From positions 1,054,001 to 1,118,000 of the forward strand of contig NZ_JABAHI010000008.1 of the NCBI RefSeq assembly GCF_012584445.1: a stretch of 64,000 nt of DNA, given 5' to 3'. How positions within the stretch are numbered: the stretch's first letter is position 1; each line of letters starts with the position of its first letter. Below are positions 26,583 through 30,924 of this stretch, piece by piece. The translations under genes and the position numbers were made by a program. The stretch comes from Olsenella sp. KGMB02461 (GTDB taxonomy: Bacteria > Actinomycetota > Coriobacteriia > Coriobacteriales > Atopobiaceae). The notes beneath the pieces are model-generated. The model did no database searches and had not been told where the DNA came from. It saw only the letters and a list, made by a program, of their open reading frames with translations.

Positions 26583-26686
26583 TTATAGCAAGGCTGAGTC
26601 ACAATGGAGACCTAAAACCGAGCGCTCTAGGTGCTCATGCGATAGGGTTAGTAGACATTCCCATGCCTGTGAGAGGAGGGCGCCAA

Positions 26687-28153
26687 GTGGCAGAAAAGGC
26701 TTCAGAAAAACGAGCCTGCGCAGATGCAGAGCAACAGGCTGCCATCGACGCCATCCTCTCAGGGGAAAACGTCTTCCTTACCGGCGGGGCCGGCTGCGGC
26801 AAATCCTTCGTGATAGAAGAAGCCTTGCGCCTCCTGCGCAAAAAGCGGCGCAATGTTGTGGTGTGCGCCCCTACAGGCATCGCGGCGCTCAATGTTGGCG
26901 GCACTACAGTGCACAGGGCCTTTAAGCTGGGCCTTGGAGTACAGGGACGCAGCACGCGCCTTAGGGTGCGGGAGCCCATCTCTCAAGCAGATGTAATCAT
27001 TATTGATGAGATATCCATGCTGCGATGCGATCTTTTCGATGCGGTGTCCACCATCATGCGCAAAGTGCGCCCTCGACCTCAATTGGTGGTGGTAGGCGAT
27101 TTCTCCCAGCTGCCTCCCGTGGTTGCCGGCGATGACGAAGCTCATCTCAAAGATGAGTACGGCATGCTCTACCACGGCCCCTTCGCATTCCAAGGGCGCC
27201 GCTGGCAAGAATGGGACTTCCATCCCTTTATCCTAAGGGACCACCATAGACAGGCAGACCCTTCGTTTTTGGATGCCCTTACCGCCATTCGCAAGGGAGA
27301 CCCTTCGGCCTGCCAATGGATAAGCCAGCATGCCTGCGATGAATATATTGAAGGGGCTCCCTATATCGCCTCCACCAATCGCGTGGTAGACAGGATCAAT
27401 TCCCGGCGCCTGAGCGAGCTCTCCGGAAAAGCCCACACCTTCAAAGCGCGCACCACCGGCTCCTTTGGCTCGGTTCACCCGGTGGACGAGACCATCACTC
27501 TCAAGCGTGGGGCACGAGTGGTGTGTTGCAAGAACGACCCTGACGATGCCTTTGTAAACGGCTCCATAGGCACCGTAACCGGATTTCCTGCAGACGGTCA
27601 GGTGCGCGTGGAGCTCGATAGCGGCGACACCGTTACCGTCGAAGCGATGAAATGGAGCGCGCTGGATTACGAAGAAGATGAAGAGGGCGGTCTACGAGAG
27701 GTAGAGAAAGGCACCTACACGCAGATTCCTTTGCGTTTGGCCTGGGCCATGACCATCCATAAAACCCAAGGACTCACTCTGGATTCTATGAATCTCGATC
27801 CCCATTGTTTTGAGAAAGGCCAGCTCTACGTAGCCCTTTCAAGGGTGCGATCTGTGAGCGATCTCTATCTCACCTGTCCTATAGATCCCACTTGGCTCAT
27901 GGTAGACCCCGAGGTGCGCGCTTTCACGCGCCAGGTGTGGAACATCTCGCAAAGCTGGGACCCTGAGGCCCACGCTTATAAGACCCAATGGAGAGAACCC
28001 AAGAAAAAGCTAGGCACTGCCACCGGCACTCGGAGGAGTGCTCGCAACAAAGAGAGCCGCGAGCGCTCAAAAGTCTCTCCACCTAAAGCGTTTGGTGCGG
28101 GACGCACTAGGCCTGCGAGCAAGCTTAAGGCTCGAACACCACATAGCGATTAA
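26687..28153 (+). CDS. Pif1/RecD2-like superfamily 1B DNA helicase
   Basis: A 488-aa ATP-dependent 5'-3' helicase. Walker A is GGAGCGKS, then APTGIAALN (motif Ia), the Walker B IIDEISM, GDFSQLPPV (motif III), a region with RDHHRQ, and the UvrD_C_2-like end with MTIHKTQGLT and YVALSRVRS (motifs V and VI). The basic C-terminal tail is probably disordered. I choose the GTG at 26687 because GAGGAGGG lies 6 nt upstream; an ATG 24 nt earlier lacks a good site. Such helicases resolve G-quadruplexes or recombination intermediates. Its last 29 bp overlap the convergent methyltransferase gene. A LexA-like box upstream suggests DNA-damage control. Confidence 0.9.
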   Translation: MAEKASEKRACADAEQQAAIDAILSGENVFLTGGAGCGKSFVIEEALRLLRKKRRNVVVCAPTGIAALNVGGTTVHRAFKLGLGVQGRSTRLRVREPISQADVIIIDEISMLRCDLFDAVSTIMRKVRPRPQLVVVGDFSQLPPVVAGDDEAHLKDEYGMLYHGPFAFQGRRWQEWDFHPFILRDHHRQADPSFLDALTAIRKGDPSACQWISQHACDEYIEGAPYIASTNRVVDRINSRRLSELSGKAHTFKARTTGSFGSVHPVDETITLKRGARVVCCKNDPDDAFVNGSIGTVTGFPADGQVRVELDSGDTVTVEAMKWSALDYEEDEEGGLREVEKGTYTQIPLRLAWAMTIHKTQGLTLDSMNLDPHCFEKGQLYVALSRVRSVSDLYLTCPIDPTWLMVDPEVRAFTRQVWNISQSWDPEAHAYKTQWREPKKKLGTATGTRRSARNKESRERSKVSPPKAFGAGRTRPASKLKARTPHSD

Positions 28154-28880
28154 GGGCTCCGGAGGACCCATCTGCAAAGAAGCGCACCCTTTCCTGCACT
28201 GAGCCCATAAGGTTGTCAAGCTCTTCCTCATCTACGTGGTGGCAAAAACGGACGACCTCAGTATCCCCTTGCCACCCCAGCAGCCAGTCTTTTGGCCCAA
28301 AGCTGTCCACAAGGCCTGGCCATCTTTTGCGAGCTTCTAGAGTTACCTGCTGTGCCTTTGTGGAGAGACGCCCGTCATCCATAAAGCGCCAGCAGGCAAC
28401 GGCCGCCACCCCGCCAGGAGCCAAAAGGGAGCTTAGGCGCTCAATCAATGCATGCCTCTGAGAGGCAAGAGGAAGGTGATGTATAAGGCCAAAGCACACC
28501 GCCACATCAAAGTTTCCCTGCCACTCCACTGGGAGCGGCCCGAGGGAAGCAAGGTCGAACGAAGCCGTGCGCACCCCCTCTAGTCCCATCCCTTCTGCCA
28601 TCAGTGGCAGACATCTGTCCACCCCCAACGCTTCAAAGGCCGCTTCTTGAGGCAACTTCCCTTTGAGCCATGCCTCAAAACGCAAGTTCCCGCAACCCAA
28701 ATCAATGAGGCGAACCGGGGCTCCTTGGGCTGCGCGGGTCTTGGCAAGAGGGGCGATATAGGGCAGCAGCAACTCCCAACCTTGCCAGCCTTGCTGGCGT
28801 GTAGCCGAGAAACTTGCAGCCTCACGCTCGTAAAACTGCGCAGTGAGTGAAGATGCCAATGCCGCCTGGGCGCTATCCAC
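28125..28880 (-). CDS. SAM-dependent methyltransferase, Trm9/ALKBH8-like
   Basis: A 251-aa class I methyltransferase. Motif I is RLIDLGCGNLRFE (near residue 60); later come FDVAVCFGLIHHLP and LLAPGGVAAVACWRF. Further on, DWLLGWQGDTEVVRFCHHVDEEEL resembles the tail of Trm9-type enzymes, where a tryptophan-containing loop is followed by R.YH.F..EL. Trm9 methylates the carboxymethyl group that Elp3 chemistry places on wobble uridine of tRNA. The divergent neighbour here is Elp3, which makes that role attractive, but it rests on motif resemblance plus context. A generic small-molecule methyltransferase remains possible. The 3' end overlaps the helicase gene. Confidence 0.75.
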   Translation of the reverse strand: MDSAQAALASSLTAQFYEREAASFSATRQQGWQGWELLLPYIAPLAKTRAAQGAPVRLIDLGCGNLRFEAWLKGKLPQEAAFEALGVDRCLPLMAEGMGLEGVRTASFDLASLGPLPVEWQGNFDVAVCFGLIHHLPLASQRHALIERLSSLLAPGGVAAVACWRFMDDGRLSTKAQQVTLEARKRWPGLVDSFGPKDWLLGWQGDTEVVRFCHHVDEEELDNLMGSVQERVRFFADGSSGALNRYVVFEP

Positions 28881-29046
28881 GAGCTGCCCCCTTCTTTGAT
28901 GAACGATGCGGGATGTATCTGGTGCTTTGGGGGTCTGTAGCTTAACCGCAAGCTACCAGAACCCACGCAGTTATACTAGCGTGGCCTAGAGGCTGGAGCC
29001 TAAGAAGATTTCTTATATAAAACACACTGTGATGTAAGGGGGGGCC

Positions 29047-30924
29047 ATGACACTCACCTATAAAGAGCGTTTGGAGCAAGCTCTCCTAGAGCTTGCCAGA
29101 CAACTTTCTTGCCAAGAGGGCCAGCTTTCTGAGAAGGAGCTTCTTAGGCTTATAAGACAGCAAAACACTGGAATTGCGGCACCGGATGCTCCTGTGAAAA
29201 AGAGGGCGCTTCTCCCCTACTACCTGCACCAAGACGAGCTTCACCCCGGCATTTGGCAGGAAAAGGGCATCAGTGAAGCCCTGGAAGCGCGCATCAAAGA
29301 GCAGCTTCGAGCCAAGCCTCGCAGAACCGCTTCTGGGGTAGCCACGGTCACCGTCATCGCAAAGCCCTGGCCTTGTTCTGGCAACTGTCGCTATTGCCCC
29401 AACGACTTGCGCATGCCAAAGAGCTATTTGGCCGACGAGCCCGCCTGCCAGCGAGCTGAACAATCATTCTTTGATCCATTCTTGCAAGTCTCCGGAAGGC
29501 TGCGCGTGCTTAGAGACATGGGCCATCACACCGATAAGGTGGAGCTTATCGTATTGGGTGGCACCTGGACAGACTACCCCGCCCCCTATCGCGCCTGGTT
29601 TGTGCGCGAGCTTTTCCGCGCCCTCAACTGCGCAGGTTCGCCGGAAGAAAGAACGTTGGTGGCCGAGCGCCGGAAGCGCTATCTAGACGCGGGCTTCTCG
29701 GCAGATCCAGCAGGCTGTCAAAAGCGTGCAGCAGATCTACAGTCGCAGGTAGATGCTGGTCTTCTCACCTATAACGAAGGTTGGAGGCGCCTGTGGGCGG
29801 AGGATGAGGGTTGGCGTGAGCTTGCGCACGAGCAGATCGCCGCCCTTGAAGAGGTTGAAGCCCAGCAGCACATAAACGAACATGCACGTTGCCGCTGCGT
29901 GGGCCTCTCCTTTGAGACTCAGCCCACCGCCATTAACGCTGCTGCTCTCGAAGAGATGCGCAGGCTAGGCTGCACAAAAGTGCAGGTAGGCGTGCAGTCG
30001 GTGGACTTCGAGCGCCGCAGCGCCAGCGATAGGCCCATATCCGATGCCGTACTTGAGCAGGCTTTTGGACTCTTGCGCCTCTTTGGCTTCAAGATCCACG
30101 CGCATATTATGGCGAACCTCCCAGGGGCCTCGCCAGAAAAAGACAAAAGCGACTATCTGGCTCTTGTCACTGATCGCGCCTTCGAGCCAGACGAGGTCAA
30201 ACTCTACCCCTGCGCGCTTATCCGAGGCACCGCCCTAGAGCGCGATCATGCAAAGGGTTTGTGGCAGCCCTATAGCCGAGAAGAGCTCTTGGACGTCCTG
30301 GCCCAAGATGTGCTTGTCACGCCGCCCTTTGTGCGCATCTCTCGCATGATCAGGGATTTCTCTGCCCAAGACATCGTGGCAGGCAGCCGCGAGGCCAATC
30401 TGCGGCAGGCAGTGGAAGATGCCGTAGCCGCCTATTCGAAAGCCCAAGGAAAGCCGGTCCAGGAGATTCGCATGCGAGAGATTGCAGGCGAGCAGCCCAG
30501 CGCAGGCCAGCTTGCCATGAGCACCTACGAGTATGAGACCCTCGTCTCCTGCGAGCGCTTTCTTTCTTGGACCACACATGACGGATCCATCGCAGGCTTT
30601 TTGCGCCTCTCGCTCCCCCAACCCCAGCACGCCAAAGCCGTATTAGGCGCCCCCGACGCCATGATCCGCGAGGTGCATGTCTATGGACGAGTCTCTGAGC
30701 TAGGCCTTCAACAGCCTGGCGCGCAACATCGCGGCTTAGGGCGCTCTTTGGTAGAGGAGGCGTGCCGCCAAGCTGCCAAGAAAGGATACCCTGCCATCAA
30801 GGTGATCTCTGCTGTGGGCACACGCGAGTACTACCGAGGCCTTGGCTTTAAAGATGCGGGCCTTTATCAAAAAAAGGAACTTCAAGCAGATTGCCTGCTT
30901 GAAGTTCCCAAATGTCCCAAATAA
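29047..30924 (+). CDS. Elp3-type tRNA uridine(34) acetyltransferase (radical SAM + GNAT)
   Basis: A 625-aa homologue of the catalytic Elongator subunit Elp3. It uses acetyl-CoA and a SAM radical to put a carboxymethyl-type group on C5 of wobble uridine in tRNA. The N-terminal region is followed by the radical SAM motif WPCSGNCRYC (Cys110, Cys114, Cys117), then VELIVLGGTWTDYP, VGLSFETQP, VQVGVQSVD and IHAHIMANLPGA. The C-terminal GNAT domain (about 510-620) has EVHVYG, QHRGLGRSLVEEA and ISAVGTREYYRGLGF, the usual Elp3 ending. Length agrees with single-subunit bacterial and archaeal Elp3. AAGGGGGG precedes the ATG. Divergent from the Trm9-like gene. The last codons overlap two minus-strand terminators. 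Confidence 0.93.
   Translation: MTLTYKERLEQALLELARQLSCQEGQLSEKELLRLIRQQNTGIAAPDAPVKKRALLPYYLHQDELHPGIWQEKGISEALEARIKEQLRAKPRRTASGVATVTVIAKPWPCSGNCRYCPNDLRMPKSYLADEPACQRAEQSFFDPFLQVSGRLRVLRDMGHHTDKVELIVLGGTWTDYPAPYRAWFVRELFRALNCAGSPEERTLVAERRKRYLDAGFSADPAGCQKRAADLQSQVDAGLLTYNEGWRRLWAEDEGWRELAHEQIAALEEVEAQQHINEHARCRCVGLSFETQPTAINAAALEEMRRLGCTKVQVGVQSVDFERRSASDRPISDAVLEQAFGLLRLFGFKIHAHIMANLPGASPEKDKSDYLALVTDRAFEPDEVKLYPCALIRGTALERDHAKGLWQPYSREELLDVLAQDVLVTPPFVRISRMIRDFSAQDIVAGSREANLRQAVEDAVAAYSKAQGKPVQEIRMREIAGEQPSAGQLAMSTYEYETLVSCERFLSWTTHDGSIAGFLRLSLPQPQHAKAVLGAPDAMIREVHVYGRVSELGLQQPGAQHRGLGRSLVEEACRQAAKKGYPAIKVISAVGTREYYRGLGFKDAGLYQKKELQADCLLEVPKCPK
30869..30908 (-). terminator. second terminator, embedded in the elp3 3' end
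   Basis: Perfect 14-bp arms GGAACTTCAAGCAG and CTGCTTGAAGTTCC around 5 nt, followed on the minus strand by seven T. It lies inside elp3 coding sequence (encoding ...KKELQADCLLEVPK) but faces the LEA-like gene. Confidence 0.7.

Follow-up and report, generated by a model that had tools for sequence, protein, structure and literature searches.

A divergent elp3–methyltransferase gene pair and a probable two-enzyme route to mcm5U-type wobble uridines in Coriobacteriia

Elp3 and Its Divergent Neighbor

In a 64-kb window of the genome of Olsenella sp. KGMB02461 (class Coriobacteriia), which is the whole stretch of DNA that we analyzed and to which the coordinates in Table 1 refer, elp3 and a gene for a Trm9-like methyltransferase lie head to head, 166 bp apart, and this layout is repeated in most related loci. 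The two genes are a unit whose association goes far beyond chance. A sequence-only reading of this DNA had proposed that they share a promoter region and that the organism makes a 5-methoxycarbonylmethyluridine (mcm5U)-type tRNA modification without Elongator accessory subunits or Trm112, and our checks at the level of sequence support that interpretation. The divergent arrangement was confirmed with exact coordinates, and the intergenic region presumably contains both promoters. A PIF1/RecD2-like helicase gene converges on the methyltransferase gene, and the 3′ ends of the two overlap by 29 bp (28125-28153).

The window Elp3 scored 373.6 bits against TIGR01211, which passes the curated cut-off of 350, and it contains Radical_SAM, Radical_SAM_C, and GNAT domains; with the cysteines of the CX3CX2C motif (C110, C114, and C117) also in place, the earlier description of a complete Elp3 was borne out. 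The proteins of known structure related to it are Elp3 from Dehalococcoides, from Methanocaldococcus, and from Elongator. Critical residues have been identified in Dehalococcoides mccartyi Elp3 (DmcElp3; K77, K193, E386, and Y441; PMC6367351) and in Methanocaldococcus infernus Elp3 (Min Elp3; E207, K302, and Y304; PMC13315578), and each catalytic residue that we tested is present in the window protein: the acetyl-CoA-site residues of DmcElp3 correspond to K164, K349, E542, and Y595, and the tunnel residues of Min Elp3 correspond to E290, K385, and Y387, with the Min Elp3 numbers transferred by means of the 95-residue E-K spacing in DmcElp3.

In archaea and bacteria, Elp3 is known to stand alone (PMC13315578, PMC6367351). 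The window Elp3 resembles DmcElp3 and Min Elp3 in standing alone and in combining radical S-adenosylmethionine (SAM) and lysine acetyltransferase (KAT) domains with the same catalytic residues, but it differs from both in having a lineage-specific insert of ~70 residues in the radical SAM domain. The published passages on DmcElp3 that we consulted describe no Trm9 partner. The insert is found in the window Elp3 and in 30 of 30 aligned Elp3 proteins of the class, in which the segment is 67-121 aa long and usually has a YN[EQ]A-like core; Elp3 proteins from outside the class have 8 residues there. The insert of the class could replace Elongator subunits in tRNA binding.

Table 1. Features of the elp3–methyltransferase locus (positions in the 64-kb window)
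Feature	Position	Strand	Remarks
PIF1/RecD2-like helicase gene	26663-28153	+	convergent with methyltransferase gene
Gene for Trm9-like class I SAM-dependent methyltransferase, predicted tRNA cm5U34 carboxyl methyltransferase	28125-28880	-	251 aa, GTG start
Methyltransferase N244	28149-28151	-	counterpart of yeast Trm9 N271
Methyltransferase R211-F-C-H214	28239-28250	-	counterpart of Trm9 RYYH; yeast Trm9 R241 conserved, Y243 replaced by Cys
Methyltransferase D198xxxGW203	28272-28289	-	counterpart of Trm9 DVMVPW
Methyltransferase H134-H135	28476-28481	-	aligned with Trm9 HH (yeast Trm9 H115)
Methyltransferase N-terminal FSATRxxxWxGW motif	28776-28811	-	aa 24-35; R28 aligns with yeast Trm9 R29
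Divergent intergenic region	28881-29046	.	presumably both promoters; 166 bp between starts
elp3, radical SAM + GNAT, predicted tRNA U34 carboxymethyl synthase	29047-30924	+	625 aa
Elp3 CX3CX2C iron-sulfur motif	29374-29397	+	C110, C114, C117
Elp3 lineage-specific insert in radical SAM domain	29632-29859	+	aa ~196-271
Elp3 E290	29914-29916	+	Min Elp3 E207, tunnel residue
Elp3 K385-L-Y387	30199-30207	+	Min Elp3 K302/Y304, tunnel residues
Elp3 GNAT (acetyl-CoA) domain	30544-30876	+	

Joint Presence and Loss of the Two Genes

We examined the distribution of the two genes in the class, using 149 genomes with a completeness of 90% or more. Elp3 and the methyltransferase were both found in 73 genomes, Elp3 alone in one, the methyltransferase alone in none, and neither in 75 (Fisher p = 1.6e-42, a value inflated by the relatedness of the genomes). 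Comparison of the genes across genomes, a check that the sequence-only reading had suggested, thus came out in favor of the pairing, but its statement that Elp3 is uncommon in bacteria does not apply to this class, in which 74 of the 149 genomes encode the protein. Four families (f1, f2, f4, and f10) are mixed for presence of the pair. There are also separate cases of joint loss: one genome (G045) has neither gene and four congeners have both, and another (G101) has neither and its congener G116 has both. In one of the 73 genomes with the pair (G029; L064 1530-3303), a single deletion across the shared region truncated both genes, so that the methyltransferase is reduced to its last 54 aa and Elp3, missing its first 206 residues, has no cysteine motif; this genome is a natural double knock-out.

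When the first 30 Elp3 loci were inspected, 20, the window locus among them, had the methyltransferase gene upstream in divergent orientation at a distance of no more than 1.5 kb, and in genus g19 the two genes are separated by ~1.7 kb of other genes. Four genomes have both genes without close linkage, widely separated on a single contig in G117 and G136 and on separate contigs in G142 and G015; linkage alone therefore does not explain the co-occurrence. One genome (G047) contains two copies of the Trm9-like methyltransferase gene (C4:255276-256094 and C6:123767-124519), one of which adjoins elp3.

We also searched 396 genomes of the phylum with the class-family profile of the methyltransferase and, separately, for Elp3. 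Outside the class, the profile gave four matches above 56 bits (G215, G380, G352, and G388) and then none above 38 bits. Elp3 was found in only six genomes outside the class (the same four, G180, and G204), and when the loci were read, each of the six proved to encode a Trm9-like methyltransferase. Three genomes (G215, G388, and G180) have the two genes head to head, and G204 has them in divergent orientation with one gene between; in G352 and G380, each of the two genes lies at a contig end. The Elp3 proteins of these six genomes belong to the ordinary type, similar to archaeal Elp3 (~600 bits), and have no insert, and the partnership therefore spans two deep Elp3 lineages.

Relationship of the Methyltransferase to Trm9

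Pfam identifies the window methyltransferase as a class I SAM enzyme, with matches to broad methyltransferase domains only. No NCBIfam family matched it over cut-off, the UbiE, UbiG, and CmoM models included, and one of its relatives scored 21 bits against the UbiG model, for which the cut-off is 103. A search for related loci with the single window protein returned one unrelated fragment only; this search was uninformative because the family has diverged too far for a pattern based on one sequence to find its members. An AlphaFold model made without an alignment reached a predicted local distance difference test (pLDDT) score of 40 and was not used.

A profile built from 19 class-family sequences was compared with all of the PDB, and its best match was Yarrowia Trm9 (5cm2_Z; 31 bits, E 1.6e-6), followed by a match of 24.9 bits. 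This is the comparison with Trm9 and with UbiE-type enzymes that the sequence-only reading had called for, and it placed Trm9 at the top. The best PDB match of the out-of-class methyltransferase from G215 was likewise Trm9 (67.7 bits, E 9.8e-18), in an alignment that takes in the C-terminal DxxIPW..RYCH region. A tree built by maximum likelihood grouped the out-of-class methyltransferases with Trm9 and a haloarchaeal protein (95/85). With hhalign the out-of-class proteins aligned both with the class family (E 1.4e-26 over 224 columns) and with Trm9 (E 4.7e-21 over 186 columns); in these alignments, the link between the class family and Trm9 goes via the out-of-class proteins.

Five residues of yeast Trm9 (R29, H115, R241, Y243, and N271) are needed to bind and methylate 5-carboxymethyluridine at position 34 (cm5U34) (PMC5372719). 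Four of them match residues that are invariant in the class family (R28, H134/H135, R211, and N244), with the yeast residue numbers placed inferentially through the Yarrowia motifs. The C-terminal motifs DVMVPW, RYYH, and DNWW of Trm9 (PDB sequence) align with DWLLGW, RFCH, and LNRY of the window family. From the aligned motifs, and after the alignment had been seen, we built a Trm9 signature, which is carried by 19 of 19 class proteins, 6 of 6 out-of-class proteins, the 1 haloarchaeal methyltransferase examined, and, apart from its missing N-terminus, Yarrowia Trm9. It was absent from the 12 nearest generic methyltransferases, drawn from weaker matches, and from 868 shuffled open reading frames. 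The haloarchaeal protein is encoded on a plasmid of Natronorubrum bangense (WP_006068033.1; L137 1444-2154); it has the full signature and is annotated as a generic methyltransferase.

The window protein is like the methyltransferases of the Trm9-Trm112 and ALKBH8 systems (compared through Yarrowia Trm9, 5cm2) in being a class I SAM methyltransferase by sequence that is paired with Elp3; it shares with Trm9 and ALKBH8 the N-terminal SxTRxxxW, HH, W, DxxxxW, R[FY]xH, and C-terminal Nx[YFW] elements, and with Trm9 all but one of the five residues that cm5U34 methylation requires. It differs from them in its identity of ~25% over the core, its bacterial host, and the lack of a Trm112 match over cut-off in its genome, and the class family reads R[FY]CH for the RYYH of Trm9 and LGW for VPW.

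Several observations weigh against assignment of the window protein to a Trm9-type function. The counterpart of yeast Trm9 Y243 is C213 in the window protein and Cys throughout the class family; in the out-of-class relatives, the position is occupied by Tyr, Phe, Cys, or Val. The class family sits on a long branch (1.2 changes per column) that the tree does not place firmly, and a single Trm9-like clade was neither supported nor rejected (approximately unbiased [AU] test, p = 0.22). When the class family was aligned by hhalign with Trm9 as a single sequence, the alignment covered the SAM-binding core only and was no better than those with generic methyltransferases. Finally, one genome of the class (G085; L067) encodes Elp3 with no detectable methyltransferase; its elp3 gene is on a contig of 6 kb, where different sequence precedes it, in a draft assembly of ~180 contigs.

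A Candidate Wobble-Uridine Pathway and Its Alternatives

mcm5U is typical of eukaryotic tRNA, and an Elp3-Trm9 pathway has been predicted in some archaea, with the genes clustered in Sulfolobus (PMC2584109). For the Trm112-dependent methyltransferases of eukaryotes, one study reported that no similar genes were detectable in bacteria (PMC5372719), and our own literature search, which had partial coverage, found nothing on Elp3 with Coriobacteria or on Elp3 with MnmE and Actinobacteria. The window pair resembles the archaeal systems (Sulfolobus, in which the genes are clustered in Sulfolobus solfataricus, and candidates in Haloferax; PMC2584109, PMC5372719), for which an mcm5s2U-like modification (that is, 2-thiolated mcm5U) is predicted, in joining a single-subunit Elp3 to a Trm9 homologue. 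It differs from them in its head-to-head arrangement, its bacterial host, and the lack of a Trm112 match above cut-off.

We searched for the enzymes that modify wobble uridines in other bacteria. Models of MnmE, MnmG, and CmoB gave nothing above cut-off in the window genome. Among 14 genomes (the window genome and 13 others), MnmE was over cut-off in none, with matches confined to the GTPase part of the model, and CmoB was over cut-off in none; MnmA, which is present in the window genome, was over cut-off in 12, with fragments in the other two. MnmG was over cut-off in only one of the 149 class genomes (G062). That match (G062:C8:4785-6713; 730 bits) is the only full MnmG among them and may reflect horizontal transfer or contamination. 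The usual bacterial route to aminomethyl-type uridines (xnm5U) is therefore missing, and the presence of MnmA makes it likely that 2-thiolation is available. The Elp3-based system would modify the wobble uridine at C5, in tRNAs of the same kind as those served by MnmE-MnmG of most bacteria, but with different chemistry and in genomes in which MnmG (148 of 149) and MnmE (14 of 14) are under cut-off.

ARAGORN found tRNA-Lys(UUU), tRNA-Glu(UUC), tRNA-Gln(UUG), tRNA-Arg(UCU), and tRNA-Gly(UCC), the five U34 tRNAs that bear mcm5U-type modifications in yeast (PMC5372719). Each has a C34 companion (CUU, CUC, CUG, CCU, and CCC), and the modification would therefore be less likely to be required for codons that end in G than to tune how those that end in A are read.

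We consider it highly probable, on the strength of the intact genes, their conserved catalytic residues, their linkage and joint gain or loss, the Trm9 signature, and the absence of MnmE and MnmG, that the two proteins form a pathway in which the cm5U34 formed by Elp3 is esterified by the methyltransferase to mcm5U34, possibly in the form of mcm5s2U34. Elp3 would work without other Elongator subunits, like its archaeal and Dehalococcoides relatives; judged by its conserved residues, it would cleave SAM and transfer acetate derived from acetyl-CoA to C5 of U34 as a carboxymethyl group, a reaction reported for archaeal Elp3 (PMC13315578). By analogy with Trm9, the methyltransferase would bind the modified anticodon through R28, R211, and N244 and move the methyl group of SAM to the carboxylate. 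MnmA may then add sulfur at C2, giving mcm5s2U34 in tRNA-Lys(UUU), tRNA-Glu(UUC), and tRNA-Gln(UUG). The substrate and product given here are those that we infer for the pathway, which would occupy the place held by MnmE-MnmG in most bacteria.

It is rather unlikely that the methyltransferase belongs to the Elp3 pathway and yields a product other than mcm5U, by acting at another position of the cm5U derivative or on another nucleotide of the anticodon loop. The great divergence of the window family from Trm9, the Cys in place of Y243, and the reading of DxxxPW as DxxLGW in the class would fit such an activity, but the residues that position cm5U34 in Trm9 (R29, H115, R241, and N271) are kept, and a clear likeness to Trm9 is seen in those out-of-class members whose genes are arranged in the same way. 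We strongly disfavor a small-molecule or UbiE-type methyltransferase whose gene sits beside elp3 by coincidence or has only its regulation in common with it. Although only generic Pfam domains are recognized and the SAM-binding core aligns as well with generic methyltransferases as with Trm9, the generic enzymes lack the Trm9 signature, and the near-perfect co-occurrence extends to unlinked genes and to joint loss. We rejected a UbiE-type enzyme because no UbiE, UbiG, or CmoM model was over cut-off and a chance neighborhood because of the 73/1/0/75 distribution.

Least probable is a CmoM-like enzyme that acts not on the product of Elp3 but on uridine 5-oxyacetic acid (cmo5U34), converting it to the methyl ester mcmo5U34. 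CmoM, a known bacterial enzyme, methylates the carboxyl group of a U34 modification, and esterification of a carboxyl group on such a modification is what we predict for the window enzyme, but there is no match to the CmoM family, the partner in co-occurrence is Elp3, and CmoB, which makes cmo5U, was not found in the 14 genomes tested, on which ground we rejected this identity.

A further alternative concerns the activator and is compatible with mcm5U synthesis by the pair, though not with independence from Trm112: the methyltransferase may need a small Trm112-like protein that the Pfam model missed. We regard this as unlikely but worth weighing. The characterized eukaryotic Trm9 and ALKBH8 enzymes require Trm112 (PMC5372719), and the window genome has a sub-threshold match of 19.8 bits inside a 781-aa frame. 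However, no family member (PF03966) was over cut-off in the window genome, as the sequence-only reading had anticipated, in a search that finds Trm112 in E. coli, Corynebacterium, and archaea, and the matches in the class are weak, short, and sporadic, occur mostly within long frames, and do not follow the distribution of the pair. A Trm112 partner is a mark of the eukaryotic Trm9-Trm112 holoenzyme, not of the catalytic family, and from this absence the window methyltransferase appears to be independent of Trm112.

Taken together, these results suggest that bacteria with the pair probably make an mcm5U-type modification that is thought typical of eukaryotes. We think it reasonably likely that mcm5U or mcm5s2U synthesis by Elp3 and a Trm112-independent Trm9-like methyltransferase replaces MnmE-MnmG across much of the class and in some deeper relatives. 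The methyltransferase, which falls outside all curated NCBIfam families, is a partner gene that can now be named. If the proposal is correct, a lineage without MnmE-MnmG would decode with a two-enzyme, Elp3-based wobble modification, compared with ~15 proteins in yeast, and would offer a minimal system for Elp3 and Trm9 enzymology and a test of the need for Trm112 in Trm9 catalysis. A modification regarded as a eukaryotic signature would then be native to these bacteria, which would hint at how the eukaryotic pathway arose.

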